From Actinomycetota bacterium (GTDB lineage Bacteria > Actinomycetota > Actinomycetes > Nanopelagicales > Nanopelagicaceae): a DNA stretch of 64,000 nucleotides. Below the pieces are notes generated by a model, which saw only the letters and a program-made list of their open reading frames with translations, did not search any database and was not told where the DNA came from. The position numbers and the translations under genes were made by a program. Positions 56,000-58,537 of this stretch are shown piece by piece. Within the stretch, counting starts at the first letter, position 1; each line of letters begins with the position of its first letter. The stretch is from the NCBI GenBank assembly GCA_026392825.1, contig JAPLBF010000008.1, positions 29,558-93,557 of the forward strand, written 5' to 3'.

Positions 56000-56674
56000 A
56001 TGCATATCCCTGATGGGTTCATTGGCCTTCCTACCTCTGGCGCTTTCGCCGTGGTGGCTGCCGCTGGCGTGGCCATTTCTATCCGTGGGGCGAAATCCTC
56101 ACTCGATGAAAAGACCGCGCCTCTGGCCGGCCTGACTGCCACTTTTATCTTTGCGGTACAGATGCTCAACTTCCCGGTGGCGGCAGGCACCAGTGGCCAC
56201 CTACTTGGCGCCGCCCTCGCCGCAGTTTTGATCGGACCGTATGCGGCAACTCTTGCAATAACAATTGTTCTAATCTTGCAAGCTCTTTTATTTGCCGATG
56301 GTGGACTAAGCGCACTTGGTTTAAGCATTTTCAATATGTCAATCGTTGCCGTCTGGTTTGGCTACGGAGTATTCCTGTTGGTTAAGAAGATTGCACCGAA
56401 GAAGAAGGTCTCAATCAGTATTGCGGCCGCAATCGCTGCGCTGCTATCTGTCCCAGCCGCCGCAGCAGGTTTTGTTCTGCAATATGCAATCGGCGCAAAT
56501 GCCACATTCTCGATCTCGGCAGTATTCACTGCAATGATCGGCACACACTTGCTTATAGGAATCGGCGAAGCTTTAATCACCTTCTTTGCAGTAGGCGCAG
56601 TACTCGCCAGCCGCTCAGATTTAGTTTATGGATATAAGAATCAAGTCTCTCAATTAGAAATTCGGGCTAATTAA
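56000..56674 (+). CDS. cbiM: Cobalt/nickel ECF transporter substrate-specific component CbiM
   Basis: MHIPDGFIGLPTSGAF conserved N-terminus; TSGHLLGAALAAVLIGPYAA; LLIGIGEALITFF. Confidence 0.96.
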   Translation: MHIPDGFIGLPTSGAFAVVAAAGVAISIRGAKSSLDEKTAPLAGLTATFIFAVQMLNFPVAAGTSGHLLGAALAAVLIGPYAATLAITIVLILQALLFADGGLSALGLSIFNMSIVAVWFGYGVFLLVKKIAPKKKVSISIAAAIAALLSVPAAAAGFVLQYAIGANATFSISAVFTAMIGTHLLIGIGEALITFFAVGAVLASRSDLVYGYKNQVSQLEIRAN

Positions 56675-56976
56675 TGAAACAGAAGACATTTTTAATCTCA
56701 GGCTTTATCGCATCACTCTTTCTTGCCGGCGTCGTTTCTTTTTACGCTTCGTCTAGCCCTGATGGACTTGAAAAAGTCGCTGGTGAAATTGGATTTTTAG
56801 ATTCTGCAAAAGAGCACACAAATAGCGATGGCGTGCTCGCTGATTACGGTGTTAAAGGAGTTGAGAACGCCCGACTTTCAACAGGTGCCGCTGGAGTGAT
56901 TGGCGTAATTGCTACTGGCGCTATCTCTACTGGGCTCTTTTTCTTGATCCGTCGTAAACCTGGCGGAATAAAATAA
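56674..56976 (+). CDS. cbiN: PDGLE-domain CbiN-like component
   Basis: SSSPDGLEKVAGEIGF; two TMs; between cbiM and cbiQ. Confidence 0.92.
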   Translation: MKQKTFLISGFIASLFLAGVVSFYASSSPDGLEKVAGEIGFLDSAKEHTNSDGVLADYGVKGVENARLSTGAAGVIGVIATGAISTGLFFLIRRKPGGIK

Positions 56977-57791
56977 AAATTCAAAGCCCAGACCTTGATC
57001 TCGTACATAGTCACGGCCACCATCACGGCCACGATGTAGGGGAACGTCTTTACTTACACCGACATTCGGTAGCCCATTCCCTAGCTGCCCACGTCAAGAT
57101 TTTGACTGTTCTAGCCTTTATTTCAGTCTCCGTAGCCACTCCGATTACCCGCTGGCCCGCGTTTATCGCCTTCTTTAGCCTGTTGATCTTTACTGCGGTG
57201 ATGAGCAAAATTCCGCTTCTGCTTCTCTTTAAGCGCGCATTAATCGAAATTCCATTTATCTTCTTCGCGATATTGATGCCGTTTTTTGGTAAAGGAGAAA
57301 AGTTCTCTGTTTTCGGTTTAGAACTTTATCGTGATGGTTTGCTGGCCGGAACATCGATTGTCATAAAAGGAACACTTGGCGTTTTAGCGGCCGTCATACT
57401 CTCCACGACCACAACTGCGCGCGAAATTTTGCGTGGCGTCGAAACTTTAAAACTTCCTACGATTATGGTTCAGATCGCTTCATTTATGTTGCGCTACATC
57501 AATGTGATTAGCGATGAGATGGAGCGGATGAAAGTCGCCCGCGAATCACGTGGTTTTGTCGCAACTGGAATCAAACATTGGAAAGTTTTAGCAACAGCAG
57601 CCGCAGCGCTCTTTATCCGTTCATACGAACGCGGTGAGCGAGTGCACTTAGCAATGCTCTCGCGTGGCTTTGATGGTGTACTCCCATCTTTAAACAATCA
57701 ATCTGTAACTGCGCGGCAATGGTTAACAGCGCTTTCCATCCCATTTCTAGCTCTCACCGCTTCACTTATTGCTCTAATGATTGGTTGGTAA
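56973..57791 (+). CDS. cbiQ: ECF transporter transmembrane component CbiQ, with putative non-canonical start
   Basis: Canonical-start ORF only from TTG 57102, but the open frame upstream encodes (ATA)KIQSPDLDLVHSHGHHHGHDVGERLYLHRHSVAHSLAAHVKI, matching the His-rich CbiQ N-terminus and continuing into TVLAFISVSVATPITRW. Confidence 0.8.
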   Translation: MKIQSPDLDLVHSHGHHHGHDVGERLYLHRHSVAHSLAAHVKILTVLAFISVSVATPITRWPAFIAFFSLLIFTAVMSKIPLLLLFKRALIEIPFIFFAILMPFFGKGEKFSVFGLELYRDGLLAGTSIVIKGTLGVLAAVILSTTTTAREILRGVETLKLPTIMVQIASFMLRYINVISDEMERMKVARESRGFVATGIKHWKVLATAAAALFIRSYERGERVHLAMLSRGFDGVLPSLNNQSVTARQWLTALSIPFLALTASLIALMIGW

Positions 57792-57793
57792 AT

Positions 57794-58537
57794 ATGACTA
57801 GCACCCCGAGTCTGCAAATCTCCGAACTCGCATTTGCCTATCCCGATGGCAATCAAGCGCTCTTCGGTGTCAATTTAACAATTCAAAAGGGCGAGCGAGT
57901 TGCACTTCTTGGTCCAAACGGTGCCGGCAAGACAACTTTGGTAATGCATATGAATGGAATACACCCAACTATGCAGGGTGAAGTTCGCATCTCTGGACAG
58001 CTGGTCGACAGCAAAAACAAAGAATCGCTTAAAGCAATCCGCTCTAAGGTAGGAATTGTTTTTCAAGATCCAGATGATCAACTCTTTATGCCAACAGTTG
58101 GAGAAGATGTTGCATTCGGCCCTTACAACATGGGCTTGCGCGGTGAAGAGTTAAATAAAGTAGTAGCCCAAGCGCTAACTCAAGTGGGAATGCTCGACTT
58201 TATCGATCGCCCACCACATCACCTATCTTTTGGACAAAGGCGCAGAGTCGCCGTTGCAACTGTGCTTGCAATGAAGCCGGAGATATTAATTCTCGACGAA
58301 CCATCATCTAATTTAGACCCAGCTAGTCGCCGTGAATTAGCCGATATTTTGCGCTCACTCGAAATCACGATCGTGATGGTTACTCACGACTTGCCTTATG
58401 CACACGAACTTTGCGAGCGTTCAGTAATTCTCTCGGGCGGAATAATCGTCGCCGATGGTAAGACTGATGCAATTCTCAAAGATAAGGCGCTATTGAAATC
58501 TCACCGGCTAGAGCTGCCTGTAGGGTTTGTGTTATGA
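57794..58537 (+). CDS. cbiO: ECF transporter ATP-binding protein CbiO
   Basis: [79 protein letters not shown]. Confidence 0.95.

Follow-up and report, generated by a model that had tools for sequence, protein, structure and literature searches.

Support for a family-wide non-canonical start of cbiQ in the freshwater Nanopelagicaceae

Where does translation of cbiQ begin when its reading frame offers no ATG, GTG or TTG ahead of a conserved N-terminal extension? The locus that raises this question lies on the forward strand of the window, the 64,000-nucleotide stretch of DNA that we analysed. The window comes from a 1.38-Mb draft genome in 38 contigs whose named relatives, judged by cbiQ, are Candidatus Planktophila, in the Nanopelagicaceae, a family of tiny freshwater bacteria.

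The locus and its reading frames

The genes form a cbiM-cbiN-cbiQ-cbiO operon, three members of which start canonically with ATG: cbiM (56000..56674), encoding the cobalt ECF transporter S component (PF01891, E 1.8e-54); cbiN (56674..56976), encoding a PDGLE-domain protein (PF13190, E 9.8e-22), whose ATG overlaps the cbiM stop as TAATG; and cbiO (57794..58537), encoding the transporter ATPase (TIGR01166, 221.7 bits against a cut-off of 211.8). The cbiQ frame is open from its last upstream in-frame stop, TAA at 56955..56957, to its first canonical in-frame start, TTG at 57102..57104, with no ATG, GTG or TTG between them; after the stop it reads ACC TGG CGG AAT AAA ATA AAA ATT CAA. At 56973..56976 stands ATAA, in which a putative AUA start (56973-56975) overlaps the TAA stop of cbiN (56974-56976), and an alternative start codon, ATT, follows at 56979..56981. 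Read from ATA, full-length cbiQ (56973..57791, 272 aa) passes as the transmembrane (T) component of the ECF cobalt transporter (TIGR02454, 149 bits, cut-off 111.8), with a PF02361 match (E 7.9e-35) beginning at residue 32. Its N-terminal extension (56973..57101), which has no canonical start and carries coding-type substitutions, contains HGHHHGHDVGERLYLHRHS. An earlier note on this DNA had described the open frame, the ATAA and the N-terminal peptide; the sequence agrees on the first two, and the peptide matches the translation given there. No Rfam element was found at the locus beyond a single chance match below its cut-off, and no special folding was evident at the junction (mean z -0.55 vs mononucleotide shuffles).

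Translation of the extension and conservation in relatives

Relatives were drawn from one scan of genome contigs, which gave 60, and from further family- and order-level searches; after duplicate removal, the survey set held 88 distinct cbiQ 5' regions with an HxHGHD motif, 87 of them in the Nanopelagicaceae clade and one an outlier. In 61/88 loci the frame runs from its last upstream stop to the motif without any ATG, GTG or TTG. A canonical codon lies solely inside cbiN, >15 nt upstream of its stop, in 14 of the 88, a plausible canonical start lies near or after that stop in 12 (including L141, from another family), and one locus is cut by a contig edge. Among readable outgroup Actinomycetes (Streptomyces and others), all 26 of 26 cbiQ genes start canonically (ATG 23, GTG 3).

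Two side observations concern the sampled genomes. Only 30/99 near-complete family genomes had a cbiQ match in the family-level search, so the transporter is patchy. Several freshwater assemblies (L003, L008, L020, L021 and others) are titled Bifidobacterium breve, though their cbiQ falls in Nanopelagicaceae, and these titles are probably mislabelled organism names.

The window does come from a draft genome, but the feature recurs in dozens of independent assemblies, including the finished chromosomes NZ_CP016769 and NZ_CP016774, and the cbiQ frame shows no disruption and evolves under purifying selection. We thus give almost no credence to a decaying gene or to a sequencing error, the latter having been among the options of the earlier note.

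The pattern of substitutions argues strongly that the extension is translated, as that note had supposed. Three comparisons over the 44-47 codons that precede TTG 57102 gave 30/15/72 differences at codon positions 1/2/3, and HHHGHDVGERLYLHRHS within the extension shows family-wide conservation. Ahead of the inferred start, differences hit wobble sites of the cbiN frame; beyond it, they hit those of the cbiQ frame. In Planktophila-type loci, positions 1/2/3 of the cbiQ frame mismatch at rates of.61/.23/.16 ahead of ATA,.32/.29/.57 from ATA up to the motif and.19/.05/.57 over the motif and beyond. Despite the differing relative frame of cbiN, such a phase switch appeared near the inferred start in 6/6 clades tested, being weakest in the ATC clade, where the segment after the start is short and highly variable. 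It is this change from one frame to the other that points to translation of the extension, and together with the 61/88 loci it marks a conserved coding start at which a canonical codon is absent.

The same data bear on initiation at TTG 57102, which would yield a CbiQ without its His motif. This codon is the first canonical start, and the truncated protein would still be CbiQ-like (147 bits). However, the stretch upstream of it is under purifying selection, and relatives first show a canonical codon between 6 and 69 residues after the initial His of the motif (54 in one relative). Because TTG 57102 is not conserved, reinitiation there, also raised in the earlier note, is not supported, and we consider it very improbable.

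A CbiN-CbiQ fusion made through ribosomal frameshifting deserves still less weight. The two frames abut and the window junction is A-rich, but the offset between them is +1, +2 or 0 by clade, which would call for shifts in opposite directions or for readthrough, and L005 and L022/L070 have in-frame stops immediately before ATA. With a relative frame that differs between clades, frameshift fusion is excluded as a common mechanism; we found neither a constant frame nor a conserved slippery site, slippery sites being judged by eye only.

Identity and history of the start codon

Starts were assigned by a rule plus inspection, with the position of the cbiN stop known. Across Nanopelagicaceae, the inferred cbiQ starts are ATA, ATT, ATC, GTA, GTT, CTG and possibly TTA/CTA. 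Alignment of the cbiN-cbiQ junctions of relatives, a check that the earlier note had proposed, gave ATA in 13/15 Planktophila-type loci, with one GTA and one TTA; with ATA kept in relatives and the coding frame switching there, a genuine AUA start on the cbiN stop is well supported. In one clade ATA or GTA precedes the motif by 24 nt, and in another ATT or GTT does so by 21 nt. A single member of the latter, L009, has ACT in place of the clade's ATT and an ATG two codons upstream, and L014 carries both ATT and the upstream ATG. The ATC clade is invariant (8/8, 33 nt before the motif), as is the CTG clade (5/5, 12 nt before the motif), where the cbiN stop is TGA. One genus has NTA 21 nt before the motif, with ATT/ATC one or two codons on as an alternative, and the exact codon is ambiguous in the genera or clades g9 and g17. 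The start lies on or within a few nucleotides of the cbiN stop in most clades, close enough for a termination-reinitiation pair; five same-frame copies do not overlap cbiN, and some copies have a stray TTG or GTG further upstream within cbiN that is in principle usable.

Within the window, the same mechanism could instead begin at AUU 56979, two codons past AUA 56973, which we regard as unlikely. AUU is a good near-cognate start, and in L003, the closest relative, ATA is replaced by TTA whereas the ATT at 56979 is kept. Among aligned relatives, however, only the window, L003 and L072 have this ATT, others keeping ATA and showing CTT, GCT, CCT or ACT at the ATT position. ATA is also better spaced from the SD-like stretch GGCGGA within the end of cbiN (56962..56967, 5 nt before ATA), itself a weak piece of evidence.

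The non-canonical state spans the family on the tree, and canonical starts occur in a few nested places, with a minimum of 5 changes between canonical and non-canonical (89 rows; nine ambiguous rows left out). The state is conserved across related species, and the ATGA copies (L034/L075 and L125) are nested inside it. By this comparison, the non-canonical start is probably ancestral to Nanopelagicaceae, which speaks against the private G-to-A change from ATGA that the earlier note had proposed. As a separate observation, the L093 (G163:C52) junction carries a 27-bp tandem duplication, GAA GAG AAG CTA AAT ATT TCA ACT TAA, which repeats the junction and the candidate start with an in-frame stop separating the copies, and which offers a natural test of stop-to-start distance.

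The neighbouring genes of the same loci served as controls. A canonical start was found for cbiM in 78/78 cases, counting seven with an ATG a few codons upstream, for cbiN in 83/83, and for cbiO in 80/81 by a lenient test that accepted any in-frame NTG within 90 nt. In L084 (G147:C48), alone among the cbiO copies, no canonical start lies between -30 and +60 relative to the cbiQ stop; this cbiO reads TAA AGT CTT TCA ATC GAA GAG in frame, owing either to an assembly indel or to another non-canonical start.

We also screened 400 kb from each of three relatives plus the window, covering about 350-390 orthologs per relative and 62 in the window, looking for protein-like conservation ahead of the first NTG. 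There were 32 flags, among which long, strongly protein-like stretches occurred only in cbiQ (all four genomes) and infC; the remainder, judged by eye, were short extensions, overlaps and probable shadow frames. These final criteria were loosened in the knowledge that cbiQ and infC should appear, a stricter version having missed both, and an initial version gave 54 mostly spurious flags with alignments running past real ATGs. The positive control, infC, has ATC as its start in the genome of the window, with a stop four codons before it; it was flagged in just one of three genomes, owing to stray upstream NTG codons, so the sensitivity of the screen is limited and cases may be overlooked. A general loss of start stringency was considered and rejected, as only cbiQ and infC clearly stood out among these roughly 350-390 orthologs. 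Separately, most of the Nanopelagicaceae infC loci checked (L163-L176) use ATC, the aligned codon in L176 being GTC, and IF3 is present in 14/14 genomes checked.

The junction itself can be set against those of a relative, G028, where every one of 44 four-base overlaps is NTGA with a canonical start, making an ATAA junction exceptional for that genome. G028 also has 27 TAATG junctions, and TAA accounts for 218/351 of its stop codons. The window junction, being ATAA, is not of the NTGA type, in which a canonical NTG shares the bases of TGA in a -4 nt overlap.

A putative coupled start and its known counterparts

We think it quite probable that cbiQ uses a near-cognate, non-NUG start, likeliest AUA 56973 on the cbiN stop, and that initiation there is weak and probably coupled to cbiN. 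A ribosome terminating on cbiN would reinitiate at the overlapping near-cognate start; initiation would be weak, with help in several clades from SD-like sequence at the 3' end of cbiN, and CbiQ would be made where CbiN is made, at reduced yield. Weak, coupled initiation is suggested by near-cognate starts in S. aureus, whose yield is about 10-30% of that from AUG (PMC13009471), and by four-base overlaps, which are the commonest coupled arrangement (PMC12548453). SD-like pairing lies about 5-8 nt upstream of the inferred start in several clades, with -4.8 kcal/mol for GGCGGA (calculated for the same sequence in L003) and GGTGG at a similar place in L005/L007; a convincing SD was not found in the remaining clades. 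We infer the exact start codon, the coupling to cbiN, the low yield and any IF3 regulation.

The arrangement may also be a by-product without a regulatory role, to which we give somewhat less than an even chance. Reinitiation after cbiN would then be permissive, codon identity would hardly matter and the third base would be trapped by the stop, with a cbiN TAA or TAG forcing NTA, or NNT in the other frame. In most clades the cbiN stop codon does include the last base of the start, whose first base varies freely in clade g17, and stop usage in G028 favours TAA. However, canonical starts are rare even over TGA, where CTG is found in 5 copies of one clade and ATG in another, the non-canonical state has outlasted shifts in overlap frame, and many other junctions of the genome are TAATG or ATGA. 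Our confidence in this account and in weak, cbiN-coupled initiation overlaps because both accept the same cbiQ start.

Retention of the state through changes of codon and overlap frame, with CTG and not ATG over TGA, leans towards weakness that is selected; a third base trapped inside cbiN leans towards weakness that is merely tolerated. More tentatively, the weak start could be a family-old lock, with free ribosomes scarcely able to initiate at it, CbiQ coming almost solely from the ribosomes of cbiN and the stoichiometry of the membrane components tied to translation; through IF3 and growth state, metal uptake would perhaps be tied to it as well. Just as tentatively, such a lock would let codon identity drift across about eight near-cognates with weakness preserved.

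Our survey adds a conserved non-NUG start kept across a freshwater bacterial family. A literature search found nothing on Planktophila cobalt transport, and papers naming both cbiQ and start codons are, by title or abstract, apparently not about cbiQ starts. This series of naturally occurring codons and junctions makes it possible to ask whether start-codon stringency is lower for ribosomes that reinitiate. In addition, gene callers limited to ATG, GTG and TTG would presumably truncate CbiQ in these genomes.

To our knowledge, very few bacterial genes have a documented non-NUG start that is conserved; one of them is infC, which encodes initiation factor 3. This textbook non-canonical start (AUU/AUC/AUA) serves autoregulation, as IF3 rejects non-canonical starts. 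Like cbiQ, infC has a lineage-conserved non-canonical start, and this genome carries both; infC has an autoregulatory reason for it, whereas none is known for cbiQ, whose start, unlike that of infC, sits on the preceding stop codon and drifts in identity. Near-cognate starts outside infC are also found in S. aureus, in cvfC1 (AUU), ccpN (AUA) and citZ (AUA), those of cvfC1 and ccpN being conserved between species, and near-cognates there lower yield (PMC13009471). The S. aureus genes keep one codon and have an extended SD, whereas cbiQ has several codons, mostly weak SD-like stretches and an overlap with the upstream gene. That overlap recalls -4 nt NTGA translational coupling, a four-base stop/start overlap with a canonical start (PMC12548453, PMC6728339), in that it too joins subunit genes of one complex; NTGA systems start canonically, whereas cbiN-cbiQ junctions are mostly NTAA or NTAG (or CTGA) with a non-canonical start. 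The family-wide non-canonical cbiQ start, well supported by these sequence comparisons, belongs to the known kind represented by infC, ccpN and cvfC1, in a variant form whose start usually sits on the preceding stop and whose identity drifts.
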